NCBI GenBank assembly: GCA_964036665.1
Contig: OZ038527.1
Location: 9,083,835 to 9,147,834 of the forward strand
DNA length: 64,000 nucleotides
Origin: Gordius sp. MW1
Taxonomy: Eukaryota; Nematomorpha; Gordioida; Gordea; Gordiidae
Direction: 5' to 3'
Shown here: positions 4,947 to 61,804 of the stretch, in pieces
Numbering within the stretch: position 1 is the stretch's first letter
How the letters are laid out: each line of letters opens with the position of its first letter
Position numbers and translations under genes: made by a program
Notes under the pieces: model-generated
Databases searched by the model: none
Seen by the model: only the letters and a program-made list of their open reading frames with translations
What the model was told of the DNA's origin: nothing

Positions 4947-6205
4947 TATAAGAATCTCTTTTCGGGGAGGTGCTTTCCATTATTTGGATTGGATGCTGCT
5001 TATCAAAATTCTTAGCAGCTCTATTGCTTCGTTTATTCTCTAGCTTATAAATTACATTTCTAGCTGTGTTGTTAATGGACCAATCAGTGTTCGTTTTAGG
5101 TAATCTTGCCAATACTAATGTTCAATCAATTAATTTTTTCTTAATTTTAACATAAAATGTGCCATTTATAGGCATTATAAGGAAATAATTATATTTATAA
5201 ATACGATGGACCACCTGAGATTAGTATCTACCTTTTAAACGCAGCGCTACAGATTTATATAAGTCTAATTATGATCCTTTGATTTTTAAAATCATTTTAT
5301 TTATTGATAGCGATTTGATGAGCTAAATGTATCATATGAATTTGTTTTAAATAATCCCTCCATTCCATAAACCCATTTAAACCTATAACTAAATATCCCG
5401 CCGAAAACTATTTGATTTTATAATATTTAAAGCATTGTATCAAATTAATCGTTTTGAAATGTTAAAAATAAGAGCGAATTGATATGAGTTTAAATTTAAC
5501 CATTGCTATTAAACTTATTTAGAAAGAGACTATCATAATCGTGTGGGTTAGCACCGATATTTATAATAAATCAAGATGCTCATTATTATTTCAAGAATTT
5601 TATATCTATGATTCACATCATTTATAAATTTATATTTGTACCTTAAAGATATAAAACACAATTAATATAGGAATAAGAAATAAGAGTTTTAAATACTGCA
5701 AAATAGATACACGATGGTTATGAGAATTTTCCTAATATTGTGATTTTGGGTAGCATGCAGTCCACGTAGTCAATAATTAATTCTATAAAATGTGTAAACT
5801 CGGCTTTCCTATCCATCAGAGCCTTTGCACAGGGGCTTATGGAAATACAAAAAAGGGATTGTTGTCTTTTTAATGGTAAATTATTCATAATATTTATACT
5901 AAAACATAATTAATATATTGAGTTTAAAAATGGTATCATAAAGTCAATACAAAAATCAATTGTTGGTGGTAGTTTTATAAAATCAAGTTTTTTGAGTTGT
6001 TCCGAGAAATGAGTTCGATGTGTAAGGTCATTTTTTAATTTAGATGTCGTAACTTAAATAATAATATAGTTTTATTTAAGCAATTAGATACGATTAACTT
6101 TAAAGCTAAAATTTAACAATACATTAATGTATTTTATACTATCTGACCCGGCAAACGTTGATTTGCTAAAAATACAATTTTCTTTAATATAATAAATTCG
6201 AGAAA
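4947..6205. other. AT-rich spacer, no gene seen
   Basis: Short frames only. Nothing with a recognisable domain, splice pattern or repeat pair was found. Confidence 0.5.
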
Positions 6206-6208
6206 ACT

Positions 6209-6770
6209 TCAGCCTTGTATGTATGACGTCATTATTGTACATGTTGCTACAAATGAAACTGGCCGGGAAATGTCCGATATTTTTAAAACTTAAATGAATT
6301 TTAGGATTCTAAAAAAGCTATTTTACCCCTGGCCGCCCTGGGCATCTATGGCTAAATTTTCGCGCGAATCGTGCCGGTAGTTTCAGAATTTAGCCCTTAC
6401 ATAACATTTATATTATACTTTTAAATATCTAATTCAGCCTTGTATGTATGACGTCATTATTGTATATAATGCTATAAATGAAACTGGCCGGGAAATGTCC
6501 GATATTTTTAAAACTAAAAGGGATTTTAGGATTCTGAAAAAGCTATTTTACCCCTGGCCGCCCTGGGCACTTATGGTTAAATTTTCGCGCGAATCGGGCC
6601 GGTAGTTTCAGAGTTTAGCCATTTTTTAAAACGTAATGTCCGATATTTTTAAAACTAACAGAAATTTTAGGATTCTGAAAAAGCTATTTTACCCCTGGCC
6701 GCCCTGGGCATCTACGGCTAAATTTTGGCGCGAATCGGGCCGGTAGTTTCAGAATTTAGCCCTTATCCAC
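6209..6770. repeat. Dispersed repeat in 2.5 tandem copies
   Basis: A unit of about 224 bp begins TTCAGCCTTGTATGTATGAC at 6209 and again at 6433, with a partial third copy from about 6640. Each contains GGCCGGGAAATGTCCGATAT, then CCCCTGGCCGCCCTGGGCA, then CGAATCGGGCCGGTAGTTTC. A further copy of the core lies at 29190-29330. It is GC-rich against an AT-rich background, and no coding potential is seen. Confidence 0.75.
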
Positions 6771-7474
6771 ATACATACACACATACACTTTACTTTATAT
6801 ATATAGATTATGTGCCCTTGATGTGGGATACATGTGCTTTCTTATAGACCTGTCATAAATTCAGAATCTTACTAGTTAATTTAATTGCAAATCAAAATCA
6901 GTAGCGTCTACTAACTTTATTTAATGATTAAACTACGTTAATATATAATTACTGTTTAAAAAATCATATAATTAATTCATTGTTAATATTTTTTAAGTAT
7001 GACTGACAATGTTTTTATCTTACACCTAAATTAACGCAGTCATCAATTGCAAATATGAAATATATTTATCACATATTAAAATAGATATAGATCGGGTGTG
7101 CATGGTGGTTCAAGATTGTGATGGCTGTTAAGAATGGCAAAACGGCTATGACAACAAGACAATTAAGGCGATTGAATTAGTCTTCACCAGTGACTATCTA
7201 CTTTTAAAATTTAAAGATTGATAACCTAATTAATGCTCGAGAGGTCCTAGTTATTATAGGTATTTTTTTATTCCAATTCATATTAAAAATAATTTTGAAG
7301 GCGTCCCTGAAGGTGAAATTTAGTTATTTTTAAGATTAAGCATAGGATGATAAATTTGACTAACATTCTACACATCTTAAATATCCTAAATAACCGTTAG
7401 TTGAGGACTCGGGTGTTCCTGCATAATATTTCTGCAAAAATCATTTAAAAGCCTTCACATATGTATTAAAGCCC

Positions 7475-15649: not shown

Positions 15650-15932
15650 GCCAAATTGAAATTGAATACTAAGATGAGATTCCTAATTGCGTTTTTATAG
15701 TCATTCATTTATTTCATATTTTAATATCAATTTAAATGGACATTAGAAATAGCTTTCGTAAATTAAATTGTAAGTTCTAATTTTGGAAAAATAAAATGTT
15801 TAATATAAAAGTATTTATGAATATGATAATTTGAATAGTGAAAATAAGGTTCATATGAAAAGTAATATTGAATTTTCCCAATGGTTTATAACGTGAATTG
15901 GCTTTTGAACTCTTTGTACACAGTGTCGTGTA

Positions 15933-17087
15933 TAGAGCCCTGCAAAATTGAATTTTATCGGCCCGAGCCCGACCCGAGCCCGAAACTTTTTTTTATTTTC
16001 TGCCCGAGCCCGACCCGAGCCCGATTTGTTTTTTTTACTCAGTCCTGACCCGAGCCCGAGCCCGGCCCGACTTTTGTAAAAATGTAAATTTATACCAATT
16101 TTATTTCAAAAATTTATTTATAAATATATTACGTATCGCGAATATTATGTGATTTAAAATATGAATAATTATGGTAAATAAATAAAGTGGAGTCTAATTT
16201 CTCGGGTTTTAACGAAGTCCTTCTCTCTTCGTAAGCTCGCCCAGCTGTAGAAAAGGCTCGCTCACTGCTAGCTGATGTAGCAGGTATTGCCAAATACTTT
16301 CTAGCCAAATTGCTCAAACAAGGAAATTCACTCTGATGCATCTTCCACCATTCCAAAACTTCCATACCATCAATATAATTCGTATTTAAATATTTATGTA
16401 ATTCATCTTCCTCAGCTTCGTTGTTATCTATTCTGGGCTCTTCTCAACTACTAAAATCTAAATATTCTTCCTCCATTATATTATCTAGAAAAATAATAGG
16501 TGCTTAATGCAAATTAGAAAATTACCATGCTCGACGCCTATACTAGGCGTAACTGTATTAATCGGAGGATTAGCCTTAATCCTTTCCTCCATAATTATTA
16601 ATTCGTATATGATGACAAATGTCATCAAATTCATAGCGAGGCAGCATTATTAAATTTCGATACTTTGGATTTAATAATGCGGATAGTTTATGAATAATAT
16701 CAAGTTCAAATTTTGAATTTAAAAACGAAAGGGCCTTTTTGGCCAAAGTGTTAAACTCTTCGCTAAAAAAGGGTTTTTTCAAACATTCGATTAGTCTGTA
16801 ATCATAGTCAAAGTCATACATAGCATAGATAGACCACGGCTAACCAAGAAATTAATATGAGGTGGTGGTGGGGGGGGGGGGGGGTAGTAAAATTCTAAAT
16901 ATTTATTTGTAGGGGGATTATCTTGTATTGTAATTATATTTTGGATTAATATTTATTCAAATTTTTTTTCGGGCTCGGGCCTCGGGTCGGGCTGGCCCAT
17001 CAGGCCCGACCCAAGCCCGAGGCCCGATTAATGTTTTAAAATTTGCCCGAGCCCGGCCGGGCCTCGGACGGCCCGTGCAGGGCTCTA
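15933..17087 (-). mobile_element. hAT (Ac-like) element, internally deleted, with TSD
   Basis: Termini TAGAGCCCTGCA at 15933 and TGCAGGGCTCTA ending at 17087, flanked by gtcgtgta (15925-15932) and gtcatgta (17088-17095), an 8-bp TSD with one mismatch. GC-rich CCCGAGCCCGACCCGAGCCC blocks lie just inside each end. The 1155-bp body holds only the C-terminal half of a transposase on the minus strand, so it is a deletion derivative that would need a transposase in trans. A poly-G tract lies at 16870-16885. Confidence 0.9.
16126..16821 (-). pseudogene. hAT transposase, C-terminal part
   Basis: 16821-16576 gives a helical segment with ECLKKPFFSEEFNTLAKKAL and SALLNPKYRNLIMLPRYEFD, part of the hAT RNase H-like/insertion region. 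After a gap and one in-frame stop (near 16447), 16365-16129 gives MEVLEWWKMHQSEFPCLS, LARKYLAIPATSASSERAFS and AGRAYEERRTSLKPEKLDS: the hAT C-terminal dimerisation domain with its conserved W, PATSAxSER and RRxxL. The N-terminal zinc finger and first catalytic residues are missing. Non-functional on its own. Confidence 0.88.
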
Positions 17088-29600: not shown

Positions 29601-32600
29601 TCCCTGTGCCCCTACAAAAGTTTTAATTGCTATGCAATTTATGGGCTCGCTTTCCATTTTGTTTGTAACGCTGTTTGGTGTCTTGTCTTGTCTTGCACCG
29701 AATGTCTTGTCTTGCACCGAATGTCTTGATGACTTGCACCGAATGTCTTGTCTTGCACAGAATGTCTTGTCTCGTTGTTTACTTTCAATTCTTGTTAATT
29801 TAACTAGTTTTTGGGTTCGAATCCCGAAGTTTTTTTTTTACTCTTTGATTGTTCTTGTTACTACCATTTATAATAAGACTTTTTGGCCGTCCGTTGGGTG
29901 CTGACCAATGAAAAAAATGACCATTGGCCAAAATGTGAATCCAAGTTTTTTTTCGTTTCTTTTTTGACTATTATGATTGTTCCTGTTACTACCATTGCTA
30001 TTATGACTTTTTGGCCGTCCGTTGGCTGCTGACCAATGGAATTGTTCTTGTTAATACCATTGATAATATGGCTTTTTGGCCGTCCGTTTTGTGCTAACCA
30101 ATGAATAAAATGACCATTGGCCAAATTGTGAATCGAAATTTTTCTTTTTCTTTTTTTGAATTGCTATATTTGGTTAACATTGATAATTACCTATGCCTTC
30201 CCTACAAGGGCCTATGCCTCTACTGAGATGGGTCCCTGTGCCCCCTTTACAAAGGCCTATGCTTCTACTGATGTGGGTTCGAATCCCGGCAAGGGCAAAT
30301 TCTTAATTGCTAGTTCGAATCCCGGAGAGGGCAAATTTTTTTTTAATTAATATAATGTTCTTGTTAATACCATTGATATGGCTTTTTGGCCCTCCGCTGG
30401 CTGCTGACCAATGTATAAAATGACCATTGGCCAAAGTGTGAATCGAAATTTTTTTTTCGTTTTTAAATTGCTATATTAGGTTAACATTGATAATTACCTA
30501 TGCACCCCTTACAAGGGCCTATGCCTCTACTGATATAAGTCCCTGTGCCCCCCCCCACAAAGGCTTATGCCTCTACTGATGTGGGTTCGAATCCCGGAGA
30601 GGGCAAATTATTTTTATTTTATTTTTTAAATAATATATTGTTGTTAATACCATTGATAATATACTTTTTGACCGTGTCCTGGCTACTGATCAATGAAAAA
30701 AAATGACCATTGGCCAAAGTATAAATAATAATAATTTATTTATATAAATCATATTTTTGGATCAACATTTTATTAATTTAGATTTTCAAATATATAATAA
30801 ACTATAGAATTTATTTAAAATTTTGGATAGGCTTCAAATCAAAAAACTGATTTTAATGTAGAAATCATTTTCTAAAACCCCTTGGATTAGATTTAAACTT
30901 ATCGTATGTAAAAAAAGAACTGAACTTGAACTAGTTATCTTTGTAAAATTGAACTATGAACTTAAGCTAGTTTTTTTTTCCTACTTGTAGTTACTGTTAA
31001 AAAAATATGAACTTGAACTAATAATTTTAAATTGAACTATTAACTTGTATCATAGATTAACTTTAACAGCTCTAATTTTAATAGAGAATCGAGTTACGAC
31101 TTTGCCTCACCCAAAATCTATCTTAGCTCACTGAATCATGGGCGTAGCCAGGATTGGTTTTAGAGGGAGGCAATAATGATTTAGGGAGGGGCACAATGAT
31201 ATTTTTTAAAATTTCATAATTATATGAAAGTTTTAAGATTTTTTGGATTGGGGGCAGTCGTCCCTTTCTGCCGCACCCTGGCTACACCCATGTAATAATT
31301 GGTTGAATCTATAATGCTAAATATCTTTTGTGTAGGTCAATCTCACAAAAAAATTAAATATTATAACTACACTGATGTTGAAATAAAATTACTTTACAAG
31401 GCCTGGTGTTGTACCACAAAGTTTCGATTTCTATTCTTAAATGTGCTTAATAATTAAGGAAAATTTATAAAGAATTAAAATAAGAGCCCAAACAGTATGA
31501 ACGAAATACATGCAACCTGTTTCACTTAGCCATTTTCAGAATATAAGTATTGCTCAATTACCTTTGTTTAGACATGCAAATTTATACCTTATATAATTTT
31601 CATCGATTTACTTATGTCCTAAACATCGAATTTTAATTAGATCATATTGTAGTAGTAATAATGTATAATTTTATAAATTTAAATTTAACACATATACCAA
31701 AAATCAACTTTCAGTTTCCTTAATTTAATAAAGCAAAAATAAAATCGATATATTATTTTGCTTCTACATAATTTTAGAAATAACCAGAGGAGTAAAACAT
31801 AGTTTTTAATTATATATATTTTAGGACAAATTTATATTAACCATAAAAATTTTATTTTATATTCAATTTTAAATTATATTTTGAATATATAAAAAGACAT
31901 TTGTCTGTATAATCAATAGTGCTAATAAAGCTTCAAGGTCATTTTAAAATAAATACTTTACCTTAGTATGAAAGGCCATGGGCGCAGCCAGGGGGGAAGG
32001 GAAGTTTATTCTATCCCTTTATCGTTATTATTTTTGCCCCGCCCCAAAATTTATATCCTTGCTACATCCATGGAAAAGGTCACATAAATTTGTAACATTA
32101 ATGTAATTAAGTAATAATATAATGTTCAATATGGTCTAATTGATTATTCCCTATATTAAAAATTAAATCAAAAGAACACTAACAATAATGTTTATAAAAA
32201 CTTATCAATAATAACACATCAATATACAAAAAGCCTAGATAAATATTTTTAGCAATCGCCGACTTATTTCAGGCCCACTCAGGGCCGATCTAAAATACAA
32301 AAAGCGCTTATAGATTACAAATTACTAAATTAGTTAAAATGTATACATACTAAAATGAAGGCTATTCTGTAACAAAGTAGGCGCTAAACAACGAGATTTT
32401 TGTTTAGATTTTATATATCTTTTCTTAATATACCTACTAATACATCCACCGACCATCTCACCTTAATTATATTTAGAAGGTGGAATCGTTCAATCATTTA
32501 TGCTTTCCCTTACATTTTTACATTAGCATATACACAGAATACGACATATTGTCATATAAAATTCTTTTAGGTGAAGCTTAATCTTCGGTTAATGTGAAAT

Positions 32601-35218
32601 TATATAGAATTAAATATATTTTATTCCCTTGGCTGTATATGCCATCTCCTGTATCTCCTAAAAAATAAGAAACTCTCGCTGTGCACCAATAAAATATATC
32701 CGTGACAAGATTAATTAAATTTCAATTGCATTCTCACGCCTACGAACAAGATGAACGATGAGTTTGATCTGTTAGAGTATACATTACATATACATCTGCA
32801 ATACGGCTCTATTAGTCAAACAGCCAAATTAACAATTAGTTCGTCGAGGCAATACAAATTAATGTATGGGATCTCGAACAGACTCTCCTTTTAATTTTAA
32901 TGCAATGGCCTGCCAAATTTCCCACGTATGTATGTCGTAAATCATTTAAAGAGTGAGCCGTTAGGAGAATCAATAAACGGGTAGCTGGTCATGGTACACA
33001 AAATACGAATCAACTGCATTAATTTAATTTCATTAAAACCGCCTGAATTAATTGAATTTATATTAGAGCTCCGGTTCGTTTGAATCCACGAGCCTCTATT
33101 ATGTATTTTATGGCTGCATTTTTTAAAAGTATTCATTTAGCAGAAAATCGTTTACAGATAACTTAGTGCTAAAACATCCTAAATACAAAATTTTCAAATA
33201 TTCACCAAATCATATTAGGCATTAACCCACGTGTTTAATTTCTTCAATATTTCTTTATTTTTAACAATAATATGATGAGAATATACGAAAAAACAAGTGC
33301 TTATATCATCTTTCACTAATAAGTTTTAATGCAAAGTCTATCGTAAAATGGCGGTTTCTTAAATTTTTAAACTAGTCCACTTAATTAAGTTAATTCTGTA
33401 TACCTAATAAAATAAATAGTTTTCGTTTTAAGAAATGTAACAACGAATTTGCAAACTAGTATAACTTAAAGCGTCTCTTATTGTTATTTTTCTAAATGGT
33501 TGTGATAATTTTACCGTGTTTGATATATATGGGTAAGAGCAAATAATTTAAAAGCAAAATGTTTGTAAAAAAAAAAAATAATAATAAATTTAAAAGTATA
33601 TAGTGGGTAAGAATTATGGCAATTGGATTGCAATTATTATTGGACATTAACTCATTTGTCATTAGAGCGTAAGTAAATTAAGTCGAACAAAAAATAATCC
33701 CTGCGCTACAGTAAATGCAATCGACTGGAATAATGTGATAAAAAAGCGATCCACAGGGGGAAATTAAGTCCGCTTTCTTCATTTCTAATCATTTTTACGA
33801 GATGTTTTAATCGGCCTGAAGAAAATTAACTGCAATAAATTGATTTATCTATGCTCATCAATATATTCCATCCATATTTGAATGTATTTAAGGCCATTAA
33901 TATTTTGAATTTGAGTGCCATATTAACGAATCATTTTATAAAATATTTAATATTAAAAAAATAATTATATAAGTTCATTGTAATTCTGAAACATATAAAT
34001 TGTTAAATAAATTGTAAAAAGTCATAAATTGGTCAAATTTAATTTAAAACACTTAAACATGTTGTTGGTGTAATTTATTTGATTGCTGAATCAAACAACT
34101 TTGAACACGTTTCTATTTTGAGTTTTTTTTTATAATGGTCGCACTGGGACATTTATAAAATAGTTTAAAATCCATTAAGGATATAAAATTAGTTTTGGTA
34201 GTTGATAGACCACTTAAGATAGACCAGGCGCGTAGCCAAGGGGGCGGAAAGCGGGATTTTTCCTTCCCCTTGGCCAAAATTTAAATTTTTTATAAATAAC
34301 TAATTTAAATGGGTTTAATTAGTATATAAGGCGCTGATTGTTGAAGAGAAGAGATTTTTTCAAAGCTGGTTATAGCGCCTTGAAGTTTCGCATATATTGT
34401 ACGAGAAGTTTATTTTTGTTATATCATATATAAAAGTGTCGAAATTTTTTTGAATTTTTCCTCCCCCTTGAGAAAATCCTGGCTACGCGCCTGAGATAGA
34501 CAACTTAAGCTAAATGGTTTTAGTATTTACAAATAAGGAGTACATCAATTTAAATCTAGATGTGTAAGAGATGGATGAAATTATTTCAACCTTAAATTGC
34601 CAACCTCATTGTTCGCTTAATTTTACATGTATAGAATCTATTTTTTTTTAATTTACCTGTCGATACTGATTGCCACCAGGGTAAAAACACTAGACGTGAG
34701 AGTGACGTTCGAAACAAAATTACTAACCACGCAATATACTTGTCCAAACGGCCAATGACTATTCATCATGTAAATGAAGTTAAAAAATATGTTGAGGGCT
34801 GCCACCAGGGTATCCGAAACACTCATGTTCACGATGAAGTAATTTGTGGCCGACCTCATTTGCCGACGGCCCAGAATGATCCAAATGACTAAAGAATTTC
34901 CAACGGTCGAAACTATGATCAAGGCGCCAAAGATTATAATGTAGACCATTTGTATATACCACGGTTGAGCAAAAATGTTTTTGTTCATTGTAATCTCTTG
35001 GTTTAGGGTTAGCAAGGTACCAGGTCCCGAAGAGGAACGGTTTAAAGCCCATGCTGAACGGCAGGCAAGCTTAGAACCCCCTGCTTCACTACCAATGCCC
35101 TCTATCAGGCTATAATTGTAATAGGTGCGGTCGTAGGTGTTATTTGCGACACATGGCAAAATTGGAGACGTAAAATTTTTGACTGAAGCAGGGGCTATGG
35201 ACGAATTTAGTAGTAATT
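23452..35218 (-). CDS. Tachykinin-like peptide receptor (class A GPCR), five exons
   Basis: Plasma-membrane neuropeptide receptor; the closest pattern is the tachykinin receptor group (insect TkR99D/86C, vertebrate TACR), which usually signals through Gq. Exons (minus): 35218-34657, 25012-24815, 24171-24021, 23963-23767, 23689-23452. All four introns are GT-AG and the phases agree. Features: TM1 with GNSLVIW, MRSATNYFIVNMSVSD (TM2), WPFGQVYC (TM3 Cys), ISIDRYFALVH (DRY split by intron 1), RTVCYLE (ECL2 Cys), TM5 VPVIILAIVY, TM6 FALCYLPYQTYF, TM7 NSMYNPLIYYW, then FRQGFKSAFRWCPF with a palmitoylation-type Cys and a basic tail. The first in-frame ATG (34988) gives 371 residues, but upstream open sequence carries four N-glycosylation sequons and an acceptor at 35219, so a further 5' exon with the start is likely. 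Confidence 0.88.
23767..23963 (-). CDS. Receptor exon D: TM6-TM7
   Basis: Acceptor aattag|GTT at 23963 gives VVKMMILVTLIFALCYLPYQ, then ECL3 and TM7 with WIGMSNSMYNPLIYYWLNI. The donor ATTAA|gtaagc at 23767 mimics a stop codon (AAG TAA) if read through. Confidence 0.88.
24021..24171 (-). CDS. Receptor exon C: TM5 and ICL3
   Basis: Acceptor tttaag|G at 24171, then YELLFLMISTYFVPVIILAI and the ICL3 stretch GEETEKQLSNIKSKRR, matching the family's GExTxxQxxxxKSKRK pattern. Donor AGG|gtaaaa at 24021. 151 nt, too short to stand out as an open frame alone. Confidence 0.87.
24815..25012 (-). CDS. Receptor exon B: DRY to ECL2
   Basis: Acceptor ttatag|G at 25012 completes Arg and gives RYFALVHVLHKKLSLKKG, TM4 (VITIVIIWTVSFIISLPYI) and the disulfide Cys in RTVCYLE. 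Donor TTAGG|gtaagc at 24815. 198 nt. Confidence 0.87.
25013..25895 (-). other. Start of the large receptor intron (3' part)
   Basis: AT-rich intron sequence between exon B and the TIR element at 25897; no internal gene seen. Confidence 0.5.
25897..26811. mobile_element. Non-autonomous TIR element, copy 2
   Basis: TAGGGGAGAACGGGGCTA at the left and CCCCGGTCTCCCCTA at the right. Internal blocks (GGCTCGGGGCTAGTCGGAGA, CTATCCCCCGAAAGGGGC) match the order in copy 1 at 9116-9914; this copy is about 115 bp longer, with an AT-rich expansion near 26010-26080. Lies in the receptor intron. Confidence 0.7.
26812..27815. other. AT-rich intron sequence
   Basis: Short frames only on the minus strand around 27387-27867; no recognisable domain. 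Confidence 0.45.
27816..27957. mobile_element. MITE, CATGGGCGTAGCC family
   Basis: Ends CATGGGTGTAGCCAGG and ATGGCTACGCCCATG around C-run subterminal tracts. 142 bp, no clear TSD. Confidence 0.7.
28105..28255. repeat. GC-rich hAT-terminus-like repeat
   Basis: GACCTGCACGGCTCGGCCGG, then AAAATAAAACAA, then GGGCCTGGACGGGCCGTTAT and a GGGCTCGGGCCGGGCC block. Homologous in layout to 7475-7575. Confidence 0.55.
28408..28535. mobile_element. MITE fragment, CATGGGCGTAGCC family
   Basis: CCATGGGCGGAGCC at 28410, AT core, then GGAGGGGGCAGCTGCCCATC. The right TIR is lost. Confidence 0.5.
28912..30606 (+). repeat. Repeated GGTTCGAATCC (tRNA B-box-like) motif
   Basis: The motif GGTTCGAATCCCGG or a near match occurs at about 28912, 28948, 29814, 30276, 30312 and 30584, each within a CTACTGATGTGG..GAGGGCAAATT context. 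It equals a tRNA T-arm/B box. No A box or cloverleaf was found upstream, so no tRNA gene is called. Confidence 0.6.
29658..29785. repeat. Minisatellite, about 26-bp period
   Basis: GTCTTGTCTTGCACCGAAT recurs about four times with small changes, beside the Helentron-like head at 29627. Confidence 0.65.
31137..31292. mobile_element. MITE, CATGGGCGTAGCC family
   Basis: CATGGGCGTAGCCAGG at 31137 and CCTGGCTACACCCATG ending at 31292; 156 bp. No exact TSD. Confidence 0.75.
31977..32072. mobile_element. MITE, CATGGGCGTAGCC family, short
   Basis: CATGGGCGCAGCCAGGGGGG to CTTGCTACATCCATG; 96 bp, internally deleted relative to the 171-bp member at 3037. Confidence 0.65.
32080..34216. other. AT-rich intron sequence
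   Basis: Within the first visible intron of the receptor. No coding or repeat feature could be supported. Confidence 0.45.
34225..34493. mobile_element. hAT MITE with perfect 8-bp TSD
   Basis: TIRs CAGGCGCGTAGCCA and TGGCTACGCGCCTG; perfect duplication agatagac at 34217-34224 and 34494-34501. 269 bp, non-coding. It sits 163 bp inside the receptor intron from the exon A donor. The CAGG start and 8-bp TSD place it with hAT, and the GCGTAGCCA core links it to the CATGGGCGTAGCC family. Confidence 0.9.
34657..35218 (-). CDS. Receptor exon A: N-terminus, TM1-TM3
   Basis: Polypyrimidine acceptor ttcttcaag before 35218 and donor GACAG|gtaaat at 34657. Encodes an extracellular region with NFT, NNT, NYS and NRS sequons, then TM1 to TM3, ending inside the Arg codon of DRY. 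The frame is open back to a TAA at 35253-35255 without a Met before 34988, supporting a missing 5' exon. Confidence 0.85.
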
Positions 35219-38200
35219 CTTGAAGAAAAAGAATACCCAGTTTAGCGATTGCTTAACAAATATACAATTCGAAAGGTTAATCGGCAACTTCCTTTAGCTG
35301 AAATCATTTATGAATTCCATAGATTAAATGTTTTTTCGATCATGCTTATGGAATACGAAATCTATATAGCCATTTGACCACGCCTATATTTAACGGAAAC
35401 TAACTGAACCAGTGTCAAATGTTAAGATTAAAAAAATGATTAAAGGTAATTTCAAAATAAATTAGACGGCGGCCATCCAAATTAAACAAAAGTTTAATTT
35501 AAGTAATGGAAAAAAACATAATCGATTTACGAAGGTTATATTTCTGGTATATTCCTTGAATCCAATAAATTTTCATTATAGTAACTTTTTATAACTCAGT
35601 TGAGTGTGAAGCTGTTGGTGCAGAGGAGGTAATTAAAGAGTGTCAGTTTGGAATCATTACAAAATAAATTGTTATTTTGTTAGTCATTAAAAATATCCTG
35701 TTGCCCGAGCGTTGTCGCGTTGCATTTAGAAGATTAATAGGAAATGTTATTTTTTGGGGGAGGGCTGGGGTGAAAAATATTTTTTAATATTAATCAAAGT
35801 AGTAAGTGTATAGAGATATTATTGAGATATCGAAAAATGAATAGATGAGGGGGAAGGGATGCATAGTTGACCCAATTGGAATGTAAAACTGTGCGTGTGG
35901 TGTGTGGTGTATAAGTTTTAAACGAACGTAATGTGTTCATCAAGCCACGACGACACAGGCTGTGCCTACTACGCGCGTTGCCAGTTTGATGTGTTAAATC
36001 AAGACGTCTTGTCTTACCCGCACCTACTAACGCTTTTCGCAGGAAGATCCGCGTCAATTTATAAATTAACGAACCCTTCCTCCTACCGCCTAACACTGGA
36101 GCTCAGATTGATGATTTCATAGTCTATAACCCTATTATAACTATTTACAACTGAAATCATATATTGATTTAGTCGGGTTTTTACCAATTAATTTGTTATA
36201 TTTATGCCAAATCAGTTTATTAACAAAAATAAAACAAATTAATTAATTTACTTAAATTGATGGCACATCCGACTTATATTTAGGTGATTCACCTAAACTC
36301 AATTGTTTTAGACTTATGATATGTCTCATTTGACATGAGCAAGTGATCGGGAATTAACCTAAAAGATATTTAAGTTCTAATATTAATGTAAAAGCTCCCG
36401 AAAATTTTTTGAGATTAATATTGAGGAGGGCCAGTGAAGTGCAATTGTGCCTCAACTAAGTATACTTATTTTTACTTGAGGCTGGACATAATTCATCTAT
36501 TTCAGCAAATTATTGATCACGCTTATTTGCGCATTGCCCAGAATTACCCTTGCTAATTTCAGCAATCATTCAGTCATGCTCTTAAAAGTTGATAAAAACA
36601 AGAGATTATATTAATGAAAAGTGTTATCATAAAGTGTATAATTTTTTTTTGTATTTCCCCTCCCCTTTTAATGGTCACTGTGACGATAAACAGATCATTA
36701 AACAATTTTGTATCAAGTTAATACGTAATAATATCTTAACTCATTTATAAACATTGCAATTATAGATATTTTTTTGTGTGAGGTTGAATTTTAGGGATAC
36801 TTTTACAGCTTTTGATTTTATTTTTAGCACTTTAAGAGGTTTTGTTTCTTATTACATAAAAGAGAAGTTTGCGAGTTGACATCTATCCCTCAATGAGTGA
36901 TATTAAATCTTTCAGATTAACGGATTAGCGAAATTCCATGGCTTTTAAAGCGGTTCTTTAGCATTTCCAAAATCAAGAGTAAATCCAAAATTTTGACATA
37001 TTACGTATGGCATTGTATTTTTTAAATATGGGTGATGTATGAGTCTTTATCTGAAGTATGCTAAAGTTTAGTTAAATTCTTAAAATTCTGAAAGAATTCA
37101 TGCTTCATATTCATTTAATAAATGCATCAATTGCCACTAAAAAAATTACAAAAAATGTGTGACTCACAGCGAATTTTTATCGTTTAATTTTTTATTATTT
37201 TGTTGAAATTTTAACATGAGATTATTAGCATATAAAGACTGTTTCGGTAAATGGGTCAAGAAAAGAAAGTATATGCTATCGCGGCCTCTAATATTTTTTC
37301 TAAATATTTTTGACATTTATATAGATCTAATGAAAAGAATTTTAATACTTATTGAACAAATCAATTAACACTCACATCTAAGCTATATTTTAGATGAACT
37401 TTAATTTAGAATAGTTACATGCTAGCCTTTATTTCATAGGCAACTTTTAATGAACGATCTTTGACGGCATATAAAAAATAATGATACGTGTCTATTCTCG
37501 ACTTGCTCTCTTAACAGGACATATTTAATAATCACAAAAAATAGCAACTTTACGATATAGGCCTAAGCGGTCCTGAGAGAATGATTTTAAACATTATAAT
37601 TAATCGCAGTTTATTAGGATTTATAGTTTTAAAGTGACAATATTTGTAGAAACGCAATACATTGTGCTTTTAGATGTTTATAAACGCGATGAGCCTGGAT
37701 TCGCTAATTTTTTTAGGCAATTTACGGCATGAAATTTAAACTAAAACTACCACTTTGATCAATGCTTGACATTCGAGGTCAGATGATACATTCTAAGTCT
37801 AGGAAAATTAAACTGCGAAATCCCTAATCTATTTGAAAGATAATGCCAGGTACAATAACAGGTTAAACATAGTTAAACATGGTTTACATAAATTTAAAAT
37901 TAATAGAATATTTAATATTTTTTCTATTAAAACCTTAAAAATTAATCTCGGTTAAATTAGAATTAATTGGGCACAAGACGACATATAGGTTCATACATTA
38001 TTCCCCTTTCCGCGAGTCACAATTTTAGATAATTTAATTGTTAGAAAAAAGGACAAACCTTACTCCTATTTTCAGAATGACCACTTCTCGTCTCGTGAAT
38101 CTAAAAGTAATTGCTACAAAATTTCAAGATTTCGAACGCCTATAAATTTTGATAATTACCTAGGCGGGACAAAAGCGCAAAATTAATATACCGATTATAG

Positions 38201-45189: not shown

Positions 45190-45800
45190 ATTTGCCCCCC
45201 CCCCTAATTTTTTAACCTCTTTCTCACCAGGGGGGAGGGGGGGGGGGTGTTTTGCCCCCCCCCCACACCCCCCCCCCCCCCTTATTTTTTAACCTCTTTC
45301 TCACCAGAGGGAAGGGGGGGGTGTTTTGCCCCCTCCCCTATTTTTTACGCTTTTTCTCACCAGGGGCGGTGTTCACCAGGGGGGGGGGGGTGTTTTGCCC
45401 CCCCCCCCCTAATTTCTTATCCTCTTTCTGAAAAGAGGGCAGGGGGGGGGGGGGTCTTTTGCCCCCCCCCTAATTTTTTATCCTCTTTCTGACCAGGGGG
45501 GGTGTTTTGCCCCCTCCCCTTTTTTTTACGCTTTTTCTCACCAGGGGGGGTGTTCATCAGGAGGGGGGTTTGCCCCCCCCCTCATTTTTTATCCTCTTTC
45601 TGACAAGAGGTCAGGGGGGGGGGTCTTTTGCCCCCCCCCCTAGTTTTTTATCCTCTTTCTGACCAGGGGGGGTGTTTTGCCCCCTCCCCTTATTTTTTAT
45701 CCTCTTTTTTACCAGTGGGCCTTCCCTGATTTTTACCCTGATTCTTAACCGGGGGTAGGAGAGGGGGGTCATTTGCCCCCCCCCCCCGATTTTTTACAAC
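45190..45800 (+). repeat. G/C-tract minisatellite, left arm
   Basis: Units of about 50-60 bp: a poly-G run, TGTTTTGCCCCC, then AATTTTTTA(T/A)CCTCTTTCT or ACGCTTTTTCTCACCAGG. About ten variable copies. Open frames through it are repeat by-products. Confidence 0.88.
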
Positions 45801-46140
45801 TCAGATGCGTGATAATTGCCCTAACAATTGTCAATTTTCAAGCTAATTCAATTTTTTAAACGTTAATCTAGTGGGGAAAAATTAGCTAAAACACAAATTA
45901 TATTTTGTTAACTTAGATGAGTGATAATTGTTGTAATTGTCAATTTTCTAGCTAATTTAATTTTTAAACGTTAATCTAGTGGTAAAAAATTATCTAAAAC
46001 ACAAATTATATTTTGTTAACTTAGATGAGTGATAATTGTTATAATTGTCAATTTTCTAGCTAATTTAATTTTTTAAACGTTAATCTAGTGGTAAAAAATT
46101 ATCTAAAACACAAATTATATTTTGTTAACTTAGATGAGTT
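45797..46140. repeat. 108-bp tandem repeat, three copies
   Basis: Units begin AACTTAGATGAGTGATAATT at about 45797, 45910 and 46018, with a partial start at 46127. They run to CACAAATTATATTTTGTT. This is the unpaired centre of the foldback. Confidence 0.85.
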
Positions 46141-46154
46141 ACAAAACCCTAACC

Positions 46155-46800
46155 CTAGTGGGGGGGGGCAAAACACCCCCCCCCCCCCTCCCCTCTGGTC
46201 AAAATAAGGATAAAAAATAAGGGGGAGGGGCAAAACATCCCCCCCCCCCCCCTCCCCCTGGTGAGAAAGAGGATAAAAAATAAAGGGGGGGGGGCAAAAC
46301 AGCCCCCCCTTCCCCCTGGTGAGAAAAAGCGTAAAAAATAAGGGGGGGGGCAAAACACCCCCCCCCCCCCCTCCCCCCTGGTGAGAAAAAGCGTAAAAAA
46401 TAGTAGGGGGGTGGCAAAACACCCCCCTCCTCTCTGGTCAAAATAAGGATAAAAAATAAGGGGGGGGGGGCAAAACCCCCCCCCCCCTACCCCTGGTGAG
46501 AAAGAGCGTAAAAAATTAGGGGGGGGGGGGCAAAACACCCCCCCCCCCCCCCCTCCCCCCTGGTGAGAAAGAAGATAAAAAATAAGGGGGGGGGGCAACA
46601 CACCCCCCCTCCCCTCTCGTTAAAAAGAGGATAAAAAATAAGGGGGGGGGGGCAAAACACCCCCCTCACCCCTGGTAAGAAAGAGGATAAAAAATTAGGC
46701 CCCTCCCTCCCCCCTGGTGAGAAAGAGGATAAAAAATTAGGCCTGCCCCCCCCCTCCCCCCTGGTGAGAAAGAGGATAAAAAATTAGGGGGGGGGGCAAA
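46155..46800 (-). repeat. G/C-tract minisatellite, right arm (inverted)
   Basis: Reverse complement of the 45190-45800 units: GAGAAAGAGGATAAAAAAT, poly-G, GGCAAAACACCCCC. About twelve copies, so the two arms can pair over more than 600 bp. Confidence 0.88.
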
Positions 46801-48700: not shown

Positions 48701-48878
48701 TAAATATAATATATATTTACAAAATTATAGGGGCCCGGGTTATATATCACGCTTTGAATTATTTGACCAGGCTACTACCCAAAAAAACGCAGATGGGCCG
48801 GCCGGGCTCGGCTAGCTTTAAAGGCAAGCCAAGATACCAAGATGGTCAAGCCCCGTCTTCGCCATCTAGGTAGTGTTT

Positions 48879-48939
48879 AGCGTTGAGTGGCTAGTCTTTC
48901 GATTCGCTCTTCAGCTGATTCGTTAGCTCGTGAAGTTGT
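48879..48939 (-). repeat. Inverted partial copy of the 69-bp unit
   Basis: A reversed unit (AGCGTTGAGTGGCTAGTC..CTCGTGAAGTTGT) sits 31 bp before the head of the direct array, so the start of the array can form a hairpin. Confidence 0.85.
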
Positions 48940-48970
48940 CCCTGAATGCATCTATAAGTTAATAAAAATA

Positions 48971-49822
48971 AGACTAGCCACTCAACGCTTACGAGCCACA
49001 ACTTCACGAGCTACCGAATCAGCTGAAGAGCGAATCGAAAGACTAGCCACTCAACGCTTACGAGCCACAACTTCACGAGCTACCGAATCAGCTGAAGAGA
49101 GAATCGAAAGACTAGCCACTATACGCTTACGAGCCACAACTTCACGAGCTACCGAATCAGCTGAAGAGCGAATCGAAAGACTAGCCAATAAACGCTCACG
49201 AGCCACAACTTCACGAGCTACCGAATCAGCTGAAGAGCGAATCGAAAGACTAGCCACTCAACGCTTACGAGCCACAACTTCATGAGCTACCGAATCAGCT
49301 GAAGAGCGAATCGAAAAACTAGCCACTCAACGTTCACGAGCCACAACTTCACGAGCTACCGAATCAGTTGAAGAGCGAATCGAAAGACTAGCCACTCAAC
49401 GCTTACGAGCCACAACTTCACGAGCTACCGAATCAGCTGAAGAGCGAATCGAAAGACTAGCCAATAAACGCTCACAAGCCACAACTTCACGAGCTACCGA
49501 ATCAGCTGAAGAGCGAATCGAAAGACTAGCCACTCAACGCTTACGAGCCACAACTTCACGAGCTACCAAATCAGCTGAAGAGCGAATCGAAAGACTAGCC
49601 ACTAAACGCTTACGAGCCACAACTTCACGAGCTACCGAATCAGCTGAAGTGCGAATCGAAAGACTAGCCACTCAACGCTTACGAGCCACAATTTCACTAG
49701 CTACCGAATCAGCTAAAGAGCGAATCGAAAGACTAGCCACTCAACGCTTACGAGCCACAACTTCACGAGCTACCGAATCAGCTGAAGAGCGAATCGAAAA
49801 ACTAGCCACTAAACGCTCACAA
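48971..49822 (+). repeat. 69-bp tandem array encoding 23-residue STPR-like repeats
   Basis: About 12.3 copies of a 69-bp unit (AGACTAGCCACTCAACGCTT at each start), nearly identical. 69 = 3 x 23, so the plus frame stays in register, each repeat reading AEERIERLATQRLRA then TTSRATES. This agrees in length and pattern with the score-and-three peptide repeat (STPR) known from the silkworm DNA-binding protein FMBP-1. The frame from 48887 is open to 49852 except for one nonsense codon (CGA to TGA) at 49283-49285. The reverse strand is also open over several units. No start codon, promoter or flanking domain is evident, so whether it is a gene, a gene relic or pure satellite is undecided. Confidence 0.8.
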
Positions 49823-50011
49823 ATTATATTTGATATAATCTTAATCTATTGAAATTTATCTATAAGATGATATATATTCTGCTAATACACCCGGGTAAAA
49901 CAACGTTTGCCGGGTTCAACTAGTCTAATATATATTTACAAAATTACGAGACTATAGCGCATTTAGCGCATGCATTTTTACGTGACAAAAATCTGGCTCT
50001 TTTGTCTAATT

Positions 50012-50267
50012 GTGAACCGGTCAAAGTCGCAGAAAAAAAGCAGCAGAATTAGTCAGAACTGGTCAGATCAAGATTGGTCAGTAGGGTTAGGGCTAGGGTT
50101 AGTGTTTTAGGTCAGCGTTTTAGGTTCGGGTAAGGGTTAGGGTTAGATGCACATCAAATTCCTTCCCCATTTGAGATTTAATTCTAATATATTGATTATC
50201 TAAAATCTTGATCTGACCAGGTCTGACCAATCCTGCTGCTTTTTTTCTGCGACTTTGACCCCGATTC
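50012..50267. mobile_element. MITE with perfect 8-bp TSD just upstream of the JMJD6 start
   Basis: Inverted ends share GGTCAAAGTCGCAGAAAAAA and GGTCAGATCAAGATT (left 50019-50076; right, inverted, 50202-50260). Flanked by gtctaatt at 50004-50011 and 50268-50275. The centre carries TTAGGG-like repeats (50083-50150: GGGTTAGGGCTAGGGTTAG and GGGTTAGGGTTAG). The element end lies 39 bp before the start codon at 50307. Confidence 0.85.
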
Positions 50268-50306
50268 GTCTAATTTTTGATGAAAAGCCTTTAATTTAAA
50301 TGTCAT

Positions 50307-50358
50307 ATGGATCGAGTAATAAAAAAAGTCAACCGCTCTAAGCGTGAAGTTAGAAGTG
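50307..50358 (+). CDS. JMJD6: JMJD6 exon 1
   Basis: [17 protein letters not shown], a short basic start like the family's. Donor G|gtatgt; the intron is only 42 bp and ends in a T-rich tttttttag. Without splicing the frame stays open, but the spliced form restores the RSELNF..W..NHY match. Confidence 0.8.
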
Positions 50359-53300
50359 GTATGTTTGATTTTTATCTAATTAAGGTAATTATTTTTTTAG
50401 AGCTTAATTTTCCGGGCGGCTGGAGTTTTAATCATTACGCAGATAAGTTTAACCCATTAAAATCAATCAATGACACATGTGAAAGAGCTGATGGTCGATT
50501 TTTAAGCAAAGAAGAATTTATTGAAAAATTCGAAAAACCAAATAAACCTGTTGTTTTGACTCATTTAACGGATAATTGGCTAGCTCAACAGAAATGGTCC
50601 CCAGAAGTAATCTTTATATAATCATGGTGATCATTTATATATACATAGATATTGAACACTTTTATAAAAGCACCTTAATAGAACATAATTAAGAAATATT
50701 TATATATATAATACTATTCATCACCTTTACATTTTTATTATAAAATTAAAATAGATTTTAGCACTACACACAATTAAGATAACCTTAAGTGTCTAGACAT
50801 TTTGGAAATTTTTATAAATATATTAATTATCTTTACTATTCTATTAAAAAGCCTTAAAATTTAACTCAAAAACTTTATTGTTTTGTATAATGTTGTTAAA
50901 GTCTCCTAAAAATATCTAGGTTCAGTTTATCATTCCAGACTTCAAAAAAAACTCAATCAATTAATTGTTCCTAATTTAAAAAAACAAGTATTACGTCCTT
51001 TTTAAAAAATTCTTTACATTAATATGTTATTCAAGGTTTGCCAATATACAATTTTTTTATCTCCAAAGTAGTTCAAATAGTTTTTACAATTTTATAAAGG
51101 CTCATTTTGAAAAAGGCTTGAATTAAATTAAAGCTGTTATTGGAATTGACAAATTTACAATAGTTTTGTTTTATTATTAATGGTATCTTGATCAAAGATT
51201 TCTAATGTCATTCCTTATCTTGTCTTAAATATGAGAAGCCTTAATTACTGATATTTTTGTTGGACATATCTCAGTTTGCTTGTTAATGAGGGTCAATACT
51301 AGAAGCTTAACTTTCTTTAAATTCAAATATTAAAGCTTAAAAATTTGAGTTTTACATCTAGATTACTTAAATCTTTGCATTTTTGAGCCCTTAAAGGCCA
51401 TATTTTAACAATAGGTTTGTATTTAGGCATTTATAGGTTAGACCAAATGTTTGATTATTTTCTTGTGTATACTTTTATTTGTTCATATCATTGAAGCAAA
51501 AAGTTATATAAATATTATTTTATAATTTAAGAATAGCACTATTTATTTTAAAAAATTGACATCAATAAGCTACAACGCAAAAAAAATTGAGGTAGCAAAA
51601 ATCATTAATCTTAATGCATTTTTTTTTTTTATAAAAACGATTAATTTCTATTTATAAATGATAATTAAACTTTAATATTTGGTTATTTATTATTTGTTAT
51701 TTATTTAAATCCTGCTGAAAACTTTAGTCATTAGGCTACAATTTTAATGCCTCACCATCTTATAGTAATGGTGTGATAATGAAATCGTCCCATCATTGAC
51801 GACTTTTTTAATTTTTATTTTTAACAGATAAATTTTAAAAGGCGCATCAATTCTTACCGGCCAAAATCCATCACAGCATTTTATAAAACTACCATGATAT
51901 TGGACCTACAAATCTACCATTATTTTCAGTCTAATAAATAAAAGAATTAGCCATAGAACAATTTATCCATAAAAAATTATTATAACTCCACCGAAATTCA
52001 TTAGTATCCTTTATTTAAATAACGAGAGATATTTATAAAATTATAATAAATGAGACTCACCTTAAAGAGGAGACATGTTAATAGTTTCGAATTCATAAGT
52101 ATTGAAATTTTTCAGTGTATAATATGTTATAAACATATATTTTATATTCCATAAAATCAAAATTACAAAGCTAGTCATTTAAGCGTTTTCCTTTGCCTTA
52201 AAACTATTTAGTTCCTGCGAATTCATTTTCAAAGGTATCTAGTGCAATTCCTCGAAAAAAGGTTTTAACAGCTCTGGTTTTAAATGATAAAAGCATAACA
52301 TATTAGTTTGATGTGTTTTTTTTATATATGGCGTCATCTTATAATTAAAAAATGCGTGTTCCAACCATATTTCTCTTGGGCGTAGCCCCTGCCACCCCCC
52401 TCTAAATCCAGAAATCCTTAAAAATTTAATATAAATATGGCTAAAATTTTAAAAAATTATCATTATTGCCCCTCCTTAAATCATTATTGCCCCCCTCTAA
52501 TCCCAACGCTGGCTACGCCCATGTTTCTATCTAAACTTATTTTGATATTTAACTTTTTACATTATAATTTTTAAGCTTATACTTAATATTATCTTTAAGC
52601 TAAGTTTTTCGTAGATACTCTCCTTAATAATGTATGAGATCATTCCAATAACTCCCAACACCTGATTGCAACTAGGCACTGGCTAAGCTTAGCCAACACA
52701 TGCATCCACAGCGTCTTTTGACGTGTTTTTTCAAAACAACTCGAAATTTGTAACATTGTGTCATTGACTCTAAGCCATACATGAGCGTTAATTAAAGTAT
52801 CAGAAAAAAGTTTTTTAGTTTAGCGTTTAGAGATAGTTATATTGTGATTGCTGAGAGTGAAGATTTACACTATGTTAACCTTGATGAATAGTTGTCATTT
52901 TTCTTACACTTTCGCACATAACAACGCTCTTACCCCATCGCGCGTTTCTTTACCTCTCCCAAGCTTAGATGTTCGCCTCTTGATTTTAGCATTGATTTTT
53001 TTAAACTTTTTTCAGGGTCTTTTTCGCATCTATGCATCCTATGGATCAATTGCTTTTCCTAGAAGGTTGATGCGCTATTTTATAGATTTTTTTAGACTTT
53101 TTGAGGAATCGCTTGTATCAAGTCATAAATATTTCCAACGTTTCTCAAAAAAGGGATTCCGGTCAAGCTTTTAGCATGTTAAGTTAAACTTTTACATTAG
53201 TAGATCTAGCCTTATTTAGGTTTGGCATTTAAAAAAGCTTTGCAGAATTAACATTAGAAAACGGCGAGCTGAATATCAAATGATAGTATCTTCAATAATT

Positions 53301-56300
53301 ATGAAGTCGTTCTCTAATTTTGCTACGATGATATAAGACAAATTAGGCACATGAGCAGGAATTTTTGATATTTTTGCTTTAAATTTACTAATTTATTCAA
53401 AATGATTGATTTTATGGTAGAAATTGGTGAAGAAGTATCGAAATCAAAAGTATAAATGCGGGGAAGATGATGATGGCTATAACGTTAAGCTCAAGATGAA
53501 GTACTACATCCCCTACTGCACACACCTTTGTCACTTGGACGACAGCCCCATGTATATTTTTGATGGCAGTTTTGCTGATGTAATACCATTCATACATATC
53601 TCATTTTTACGAGTTTACATACTCTTTTGACTTTATTTTTTATTTTTTTGCCAATTTGTTTGGGATTTATGTCGGTTATCTAAAATTACCTGGTTCATAA
53701 ATTTGAAGATTTTAAAAAATTAGAGCCTAGATTTTTTTGCGAAAGGTATGGATACTTATAATTTTGTGACTAAATAATGCTATGTTAGTAAATATGAAAT
53801 AAATTAAAATTAACAAATAGAGCATAAAAATTGGCTCCTAAATGACGTCTTTTCATATTATTTTCCAGGCTCGCTCAATACAAAAATGTATAAAATATTA
53901 AAATTCTTTTTATATATCGAAGAAATTTCAGCAATTGTTCACTCTTAGCTTAGAATATAGTAAATTTTAATTTGTGTGCAAACGACCCCAGATTTTTCCG
54001 TTTTCAATTGATCAAAAAGCAAAACATTTATAAATAATGTATGCTAGCAAGCTAAGAAGCAGTCGCTGTTGCAAGATTACGAAGTTCCGAAATACTTTAG
54101 CGAAGATTTGTTCAAGTACACGAGCGAAAGGCGCAGGCCCCCTTATCGTTGGATAGTTATAGGACCGACTCGATCCGGGACTGGGATACACATTGACCCC
54201 TTGGGCACATCTGCTTGGAATGCCTTGGTCAAGGGGCATAAATGGTAACTCAATTTTTTGCAATTTTAATGCATCTGACCTCTTTTATTTCGTTAATTCA
54301 CCCTACTAGCGAAAATTTAGTCTCAAATCATGTGACCATATTGAAATTGAAAATTTTGGCCATGGCAATGTCAATTCATCTGCTGATTTTGAATATTCAG
54401 GATCTGAAGATGACGACTATATAATAATATGATTGTCCATATTAACCTATAAACTAAAATATAATTAATAATATTAAATTAATAAAATTTAATCTTAAGT
54501 ATTCGGAATAGGTAATAGGAAAAAGGAAAAACAGCTGATTAAAAATTATATAAGTCTTTTTTTTTTATAAAAAATTCGGTGCACTTGTATATTTTTATAG
54601 CCATATCCAGCCTATTTTTATCCTTGACTCCTATTTAAATTTGACTTCTGAATAACAATTTAAATTCTGTGTCGCATCATAGCGATTTCGATTATGCAAA
54701 AAATCTTTAACCTAAGAACCTCAATAGTTTAATTTTTACTTAATTTATATCGTCAAAACACACCTTTCATTTACCTCAAAGGTGGGATTATAAACTGCTA
54801 CAAGTTTGCTCATACGAATCAATCAAGAAACTTTTAGTCCTCTATAACTATTTAAGCAACTCTACGAATTGTTTTACTTTCTTTATTTATATATATATTT
54901 TAATAATTAATTTGATGTTAGTTTTTTTGTATATATCTTAATTTATCCTTGGTCAAGTGATCATAATTTTTGTACGTCACTAGTCATGGTATTATATATG
55001 ACCCCGTGCTTGATTTTTTTAAGGTGGTGCCTTTTCCCACCCTCCACGCCGAAGCAATTGTTGAAGGTTAAATCGGCAGAGAATAAGAAGAGTAAGGGCG
55101 AAGCCATAACATGGTTCGACGTCATATACCCCCGCACGAAACGACCTGATTGGCCCGGACAATACCCACGGGTATGTGATTATTCTGTGCTTTTATTTCA
55201 TCAATTATTCTTTCTATGTTGCCTACATCTTTGTTTTTAAATTGCTAGGTTTTTGTTCCCTCCCTCCCCCACTCTCAGAGAAAACTTTTATTTTCATGTA
55301 TTAAGTAAAATTTGTTCGAATAATGACTTTGAGCAATTTATATCTATTTATTTTATAATCGACGTCACTTTTGCCAGTTGAAATAGCGATTTTTATGGCA
55401 GTCCATAATGCTTTGCATATTATCTTAAGCTTAGATTTTACTCAAATTTTTAGGCTATCTATATATTCATATGTGGAAAAGTTAGTCCCTTCTGCCTCGA
55501 GCAAACTCTTTATTAACATTAATTTATCGCGAGGATCGTGATATTTTACATTTATAAGAACTTTCACTCAAGGCGAGCACGACTAACCTCTTGGTATATC
55601 GAATATGGCAGTAATAATAATTTACCTTTGTTTTCTATGGACTCGTACCTAAAGATGGAAATTTTGCAAAAACCGGGCGAAACCGTTTTCGTACCTTCGG
55701 GTTGGTGGCACGTGGTTATCAATTTGGATTTCACCGTGGCCGTAACGCAAAATTTTGCTAGCACCACAAATTTTCCCATCGTTTGGGTCAAGACTGTCCG
55801 AGGCAGACCTCGCCTATCCAAAAAGTGGTACGAATCGCTGAAGGTCAGTCATTTATAATTATGACATTGCTTTATTGTCCCGCCCGGCCTATTTTTATTA
55901 GCGTCTTGCACCCATGTTGATGCGTCGTAAAAAATTTGGGCTGTGTTTAGTCGACTTTTGGTTTAACTAAGGCTAGCGGGCGACTTAACGAAAACAGACC
56001 AAAATCCTCTGGTTTATTTTTCAAATTTCGACTAAGCCTTGAGGTCGATTAAACAAAAGCCAGGCATTTTATTTTCAAATTTCGACTAAGCCTTGAGGTC
56101 GATTAAACAAAAGCCAGGCATTTTACAGCATTGGTTGGAATTAGAGGGGAGCAATAATGATTTAGGGCGGGGCAAAATGATCATTTTTTGAAAATTTAGC
56201 CATAATTTTAAGGAATTTTTGGATTTAGAGAGGGGCAGCCGCCCATCCCTGCCCCCCCCCCGGCTACGCCTGAATATATTGTGTGAGGGTCTAATGCAAA

Positions 56301-60829: not shown

Positions 60830-61804
60830 ATTCTCTGTTTATCAAACTCTGGAATCTTATGAATCTGACAGCGAAGAAGTTGTTGTAGATAAAAAAAAGA
60901 ATCGATTGCCACGTAAACGCACCAATATTATTTGGAAGAAGATTGCCACCTATGAAAATGCAGAAGAAGCTAAAACTTTTGTGGATAAAGCCTAGGGCTA
61001 TTGGTACAAAAATAACACTTGGGAAGGTATGAAAGTTTATTACAGGTAAAATATTTTTACCTTATATAATGATTTTTAATTTTTAAGGTGTAACAAAGCC
61101 AAATACAGAGGTCTGCAATGTGCCGCAAGATTGTACATTTGGTATGAATCTATATCTGATAAGGCGAAAGCTTATGCTTCAAAGTCATTACATACTCATC
61201 AAGAAGATACTAAAAATACTAAACTAAATACTGAAGGCCTAAATCAATAATTTATAATCTAAACAAAATGGTTTACAAAATTTCAATGTCCCAACTTAGA
61301 AATACATTAACAGCTTAAAGAAAGGAAAAATACGGTTTATCAATAATTAGTTTAGGAGAGTTAGAACAATGGCTAATTGATTATTCCTTAATACCCTCAG
61401 ATGAAGATGAACCCTTTATAGTTTCTTATATGGTGTGCTATGAAGAATGTACTTTTAAATTTTTATGTTAACAAAGAGGTATTTTATCATTTTTCATCTG
61501 TTAGTTTTAGGCTTTTGGGGAATAGTGAACTTTCAGATATATTGCATGCTGATGCCACCTATAAAATCACTTTGCACGTCTTCCCACTTTTAATAATTGG
61601 TACCACTGATTATGATAGACATTTTCATTTTTTGGGAATGTCTCTCTGTACAAACGAAAGGAAAGACTTCATATTTCTTTTTAACGGTTTAATTCTTGAG
61701 CTGAAGTCTTTAGATAATACAACTCCTAAATGTGAGGTTTTAGTTACAGATGGAAGAAAGCGAGGCAGACCCTTAAAGGCTAAATCAGCCTTTATTGTTC
61801 AGTA
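60830..61804 (+). pseudogene. Mutator-like (MULE) transposase, broken and internally deleted
   Basis: The first part (about 60830-61250) is an FLYWCH/WRKY-GCM1-like zinc-binding region: WKKIATYENAEEAKTFV, then KVYYRCNKAKYRGLQCAARL and a C-terminal HTH, with a 42-bp intron at 61046-61087 and an in-frame TAG at 60993-60995. Then ISLGELEQWLIDYSLIPSDED. The last part (61440-61804) is the start of the catalytic domain: LSDILHADATYKITLHVFPL, IIGTTDYDRHFHFLGMSLCT and DFIFLFNGL, where HADATYK holds the first catalytic Asp. VLVTDG is then followed directly by RKRGRPLKAKSAFIVQ, the element's usual AT-hook-like C-terminus, so the rest of the catalytic domain is deleted. Confidence 0.82.

Follow-up and report, generated by a model that had tools for sequence, protein, structure and literature searches.

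The 64,000 nucleotides of the genome of Gordius sp. MW1 analysed here (the window) contain a tandem array of 69-bp units, each of which reads as a 23-residue peptide resembling the STPR repeat, a DNA-binding domain of uncommon type known from work on FMBP-1. The question arises as to whether this array belongs to a gene, and if it does not, how DNA that reads as a protein repeat came to be multiplied at this site.

TRF places the array at 48970-49817, with a period of 69, 12.3 copies, 94% matches and 0% indels. Aligned unit by unit, it consists of 12 full units, each with 0 to 4 differences from the consensus (mean pairwise identity 95.4%), followed by a 13th, partial unit that can be traced for 25 nt, up to 49822, with 4 differences; the array breaks off within this last unit. 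Identity between units is flat at lags of 1 to 7 (94.5 to 95.7%), which rules out a higher-order repeat structure. The consensus unit translates in one frame of the plus strand as ESAEERIERLATQRLRATTSRAT, with variants between units. An inverted partial unit of 61 nt ends 30 nt ahead of the array, and pairs (98% complementarity) with a segment of units 1 and 2, leaving a gap of 58 nt. The original prediction had described a 69-bp array of 23-codon units in constant register, the translation of the unit, a single nonsense codon in an otherwise open frame and an inverted partial unit heading the array; TRF and the unit alignment agree with its coordinates, and each of these descriptions was confirmed. 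Concerning non-coding genes, the Rfam scan of the window gave no family at the gathering threshold, and the tRNA search of the window found none. A sub-threshold match to MIR162_2 (38.3 bits where 103 are required, E 4.4e-06), on the minus strand at the inverted repeat, was taken as a hairpin artefact.

One frame of the plus strand is open across the array save for the TGA of unit 5. This openness is unremarkable, because 38.6% of 69-mers shuffled at constant composition have a given frame open (and 95.9% at least one of the six), and it is not significant by itself. The array frame contains no ATG between 48887 and 49849. Among the units, 15 distinct changes are found, comprising 2 synonymous, 12 missense and 1 nonsense (CGA to TGA), and 12 of the 15 hit a G or a C. 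When each change is placed randomly on sites bearing the same base, so as to obtain a neutral, composition-matched expectation, 3.66 synonymous changes are expected (P(<=2) = 0.22). The distribution over codon positions, by which the original prediction proposed to judge the array, is indeed uneven (5, 9 and 1 changes at positions 1, 2 and 3) and at first sight resembles positive selection, but when placement preserves the base change in each case, 3.49 changes are expected at position 3 (P(<=1) = 0.08), and we do not claim positive selection from this split. We observed no sign of purifying selection on the units either. Given the lack of an in-frame start, the nonsense codon and the neutral substitution pattern, we reject a live coding array, and the proposal that the locus encodes a DNA-binding protein is not supported: judging from these features, the array is probably dead and makes no protein now.

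In contrast to the openness of the frame, the profile match is significant. The Pfam profile STPRs (PF21107, gathering cut-off 27 bits), run separately on the two stop-free pieces, gives 38.8 bits for 48971-49282 and 39.2 bits for 49286-49840, and all other Pfam families stay below their own cut-offs, the nearest being Ribosomal_L27A (20.8 bits against 21.5). Since repetition inflates profile scores, four copies of the consensus unit, which score 37.8 bits, were compared with periodic controls of the same composition, consisting of eight column-permuted versions and one reversed version. None of the nine control peptides reached the PF21107 cut-off, and STPRs was listed for one only, at 9.9 bits. 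A single unit alone gave no Pfam match. Because both pieces pass the cut-off and no control does, we consider the unit to be related to STPR-coding DNA, from which it would descend or which, less likely, it would mimic. Its other STPR feature is the 23-residue tandem unit itself, kept without indels in 12 full copies, and the STPR resemblance proposed in the original prediction is supported. In FMBP-1, E4 and R9 of each repeat are described as forming a salt bridge (PMC4821344). Both are present in the consensus if numbering starts at ESAEER, a register that we assume, and a hand count finds the pair intact in 9 of 12 cases, the arginine being replaced by lysine in units 6 and 13 and the glutamate by lysine in unit 11. 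Other searches gave little: one stop-free piece, compared with the sequences of solved structures, returned one weak match (E 0.11), PHROGs one weak match to a family of unknown function (19.5 bits), and a database search for close protein relatives of the array 20 pattern-matching stretches with 0 confirmed. The array DNA had 0 matches in a collection of viral contigs (viral_contigs), and tblastn of plasmids gave no match.

What, then, is the array part of? Helitrons are described as having 5'-TC and 3'-CTRR ends, a 3' hairpin and A/T flanks (excerpts of PMC4344730; the A/T insertion site and hairpin also in those of PMC5714489). Around the array, a 3' end of CTRR type (CTAG) is followed by T (49920-49924), and a hairpin (49889-49915) ends 4 nt before it. 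At the left end, A is followed by TA (48704/48705), the TC mark being absent, and the insert is filed as Helitron-like only for this reason. The left end is formed by a 23-bp repeat, TMTAATATATATTTACAAAATTA (M = A or C), which occurs again after the CTAG, where it does start with TC; its exact 21-bp part lies at 48707-48727 and 49926-49946. The repeat may be the 5' terminus, which a second head-to-tail element or a partial copying round would have doubled. From these marks we infer that the ends at 48705 and 49923 may have worked as Helitron ends. The combination of hairpin and CTAGT is weak evidence when taken alone, 6 of 91 CTAGT sites folding at -10.5 kcal/mol or below against 76 of 3000 random positions.

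Table 1. Features of the window, with the marks on which each was recognized
Feature	Position	Strand	Evidence and remarks
Transposon remnants: two reverse transcriptase fragments, hAT dimerisation domain, weak sub-cut-off MULE transposase match	1569-2129, 15143-15682, 16132-16443, 61422-61802	+, -, -, + (in the order of the positions)	Pfam
Helitron-like element, 669 bp, A/TCTATATATATAAAG...CAACGTTTGCCGGGTCAGATAG/T, with 225/141-bp tandem repeats inside	6139..6807	-	TC start, 3' ATAG/T, TRF
129-bp tandem repeat family	11939-12859; inverted relative ~17 kb away, ~29860-30100		TRF
Rhodopsin-type GPCR part	34656-35252	-	7tm_1, 82.6 bits
Unusual arrays containing homopolymer blocks of G and of C (e.g. 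GGGGGGGTGTTTTGCCCCCCCC), period mostly 47-77 bp	45195-46789		TRF
Probable decayed non-autonomous Helitron-like insert, array inside	48705..49923	+	Preceded by A; 5' end AT-rich, with TA instead of TC; hairpin and CTAG/T at the 3' end; 3' 15-mer common with 6139-6807
5' terminal repeat copy TATAATATATATTTACAAAATTA	48705..48727	+	23 bp, 1 mismatch to 49924-49946; 21 bp exact
Inverted partial array unit, hairpin arm, 61 nt	48879..48939	-	98% complementary to 48998-49058
69-bp tandem array, 12 full units and a partial one; 23-residue STPR-like frame	48970..49822 (TRF end 49817)	+	TRF, unit alignment, PF21107 matches
In-frame TGA, unit 5	49283..49285	+	Reading of the frame, unit alignment
3' terminal hairpin and CTAG end	49889..49923	+	The 36 nt preceding CTAGT fold at -11.0 kcal/mol
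Second copy of 5' terminal repeat, TC start	49924..49946	+	Directly after CTAG
MITE-like element, 57-bp terminal inverted repeats (95% complementary), telomere-like GGGTTAGGG stretches	50019-50260		Between array and JMJD6 gene
Frames with JMJD6 gene parts	50295-50618 and 55523-55855	+	PDB JMJD6, best E 1.9e-11 and 1.2e-33

A further mark links the insert to the 669-bp element of Table 1. The 15-mer CAACGTTTGCCGGGT of the insert's 3' end, which was chosen after a BLAST match, occurs twice in the window, with 0 occurrences expected from shuffles. Its other copy, on the minus strand at 6146-6160, is near an end of the 669-bp element, and both copies have TAGT within 11 nt downstream. As regards a possible family with common termini and variable insides, the two elements have this 3' 15-mer in common, and both contain tandem repeats. 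A repeated 15-mer ahead of TAGT is not a specific mark in general, because 44 of the 45 listed cases belong to two other repeat families.

As to the source of the STPR DNA, a relaxed two-unit STPR pattern found a single stretch in 84,980 prokaryote species genomes (genome_contigs), on LWTN01000175.1, a contig from the MAG of a sponge symbiont. This contig most likely comes from the sponge host or another eukaryote. It carries, in this order, an STPR-like piece at 2-235 (18.6 bits, below the cut-off of 27), a DUF6570-like piece (19.4 bits, also below cut-off), Helitron_like_N and PIF1, the last two exceeding their cut-offs (63.1 bits against 28.9 and 73.9 bits against 25.9, respectively). An architecture combining STPR with Helitron Rep/Hel exists among animal proteins. 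On the contig, the STPR piece has its own open frame, cut by the contig start, and the later parts lie in other frames; a single protein may have joined STPR, Helitron_like_N and PIF1. When seven pieces of the contig were compared with the window, the STPR piece was alone in matching, besides a chance-level helicase match (E 0.67), and all its matches fell in the array (37.7% identity over 77 residues with the array translation; E 0.005 for a search of the 64-kb window without low-complexity filtering). Helitron_like_N has one match in that MAG, on this contig, and none in 14 control genomes; a second STPR match of the MAG is on a different contig and below cut-off (23.4 bits). The guess that the array might be transposon-borne, made in the original prediction, is supported from two sides, by the Helitron-like ends and by this single contig of Helitron type, on which STPR-like repeats precede the Helitron parts. 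The STPR resemblance alone cannot fix the source, because 63 stretches in IMG/VR match the same relaxed pattern. A stricter STPR tandem pattern found 0 stretches in viral_contigs and 0 in genome_contigs, the 3'-end pattern had 0 matches in viral_contigs, and a search of viral_contigs for relatives of the contig's Helitron_like_N protein gave 1 pattern-matching stretch, with 0 confirmed.

The 63 viral stretches (L001-L063) hold STPR-like arrays of 23-residue repeats (ETPEERE..RL...), for instance L036:1139-1540 and L001:2325-3392. Three of four such proteins pass the PF21107 cut-off (85.8, 154.4 and 41.7 bits) and one fails (22.2 bits); in PHROGs, 2 of 8 (L049 and L024) match endonuclease VII.

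The explanation that we favor, with a probability of roughly 0.55, sees in the array a tandem repeat carried as a passenger by a decayed non-autonomous Helitron-like element. Its monomer would derive from STPR-coding DNA, most likely from the STPR region with which the Rep/Helicase gene of an autonomous partner begins. Such a segment would have been captured and then amplified at the DNA level, slippage, unequal exchange and rolling-circle copying being candidate mechanisms, and this amplification would have left the inverted partial copy at the head of the array. The element would have moved by its terminal signals alone, and a copy would have landed some 0.5 kb ahead of the first JMJD6-matching stretch (~50415), then decayed. 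The JMJD6 and GPCR matches speak for an animal genome.

Other scenarios have to be considered, some of which differ on the vehicle and some on the nature of the repeat. The same Helitron-like insert may have taken its STPR segment from a host gene, a relative of FMBP-1 or ZNF821, instead of Rep/Hel. Capture of host DNA by Helitrons is known (excerpts of PMC8268682), and FMBP-1 and ZNF821 are STPR genes of animals (PMC4821344, in part); however, the sole relaxed-pattern match in genome_contigs belongs to a contig of Helitron type, although this collection, being prokaryotic, says little on host genes, and we hold a host origin to be possible but unlikely. The main rival of the Helitron reading itself is that the exact 21-bp repeat is the target-site duplication of some other element, such as a LINE-moved copy. 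Such an event would account for a direct repeat flanking both sides of the insert, and two reverse transcriptase fragments are present elsewhere in the window. However, no poly-A tail precedes the right copy of the repeat, and the repeat, taken one mismatch further, starts right after the CTAG behind the hairpin, whose 15-mer recurs at the end of the other element, so that a target-site duplication appears rather improbable.

With regard to the repeat, an STPR-coding exon or gene still alive, its array kept by selection, would agree with the profile match and with a frame open but for one stop. Against it stand the missing methionine, the nonsense codon, the predominance of missense changes (12 of 15) and the lack of any sign of purifying selection, and we give it hardly any credence. 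A non-coding minisatellite resembling STPR by chance is conceivable insofar as almost all shuffled units are open in some frame, a single unit finds no Pfam match, and repetition inflates scores enough for the unrelated Ribosomal_L27A to be weakly matched; the failure of all nine periodic controls of the same make-up, the best listed of which is far below the consensus, makes such mimicry extremely improbable.

To our knowledge, little is known about how Helitron transposases recognise their own ends. If STPR were the transposase module that binds the AT-rich 5' end, non-autonomous elements might carry amplified STPR DNA of the transposase gene, an idea that we consider very doubtful. FMBP-1 binds the 9-bp site ATNTWTNTA (PMC4821344, in part). 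This motif is present in all three 5'-end stretches (48705-48727, 49924-49946 and 6785-6807) and in neither of the two 3'-end stretches examined, but it also occurs in 14% of the 12,463 similarly AT-rich 23-bp stretches of the window. The motif support for end-binding is weak, because the first two stretches duplicate one another, the comparison was devised after the fact, and the window as a whole is enriched in the motif (213 occurrences against 128 expected).

Internal tandem arrays are already known in Helitrons of oyster, C. elegans and Drosophila virilis (excerpts of PMC8268682, PMC4595182 and PMC3833285). As far as these excerpts go, the non-autonomous Helitrons and Helentrons with arrays (C. 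gigas satDNAs, C. elegans families, D. virilis Helitron-2, lepidopteran Hel-2) resemble the Gordius insert in the 3' hairpin with CTAG, the A/T flanks and the central array. They differ from it in that the Gordius monomer reads as an STPR protein repeat, its left end is TA and not TC, and a single decayed copy is seen in the window. With the STPR domain of FMBP-1 and ZNF821, the array shares the 23-residue unit and an above-cut-off score and, if its consensus is numbered from ESAEER, may share the E4-R9 spacing; unlike that domain, it is made of 12 almost identical units, is interrupted by a stop and lacks a start codon, and its product is putative. The sponge-MAG contig is similar in its 23-residue repeats of ESAEQR..RL type and in the identity given above, whereas its repeats, about three in number and diverged, lie at the contig start ahead of Helitron_like_N and PIF1, which are in other frames, and score below the cut-off. 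A literature search for Helitron together with STPR found nothing combining them; for STPR names, the matches listed dealt with FMBP-1, with ZNF821 or with unrelated subjects, and no phage paper was among them. No description of an STPR-coding monomer inside a Helitron was found in these searches.

The evidence at present consists of one decayed element. If the explanation is true, STPR repeats at the start of Rep/Hel, together with STPR DNA recycled as a central array, would point to a role of STPR in transposons that can be tested, and the locus would be a clear case of coding repeat DNA becoming a minisatellite.
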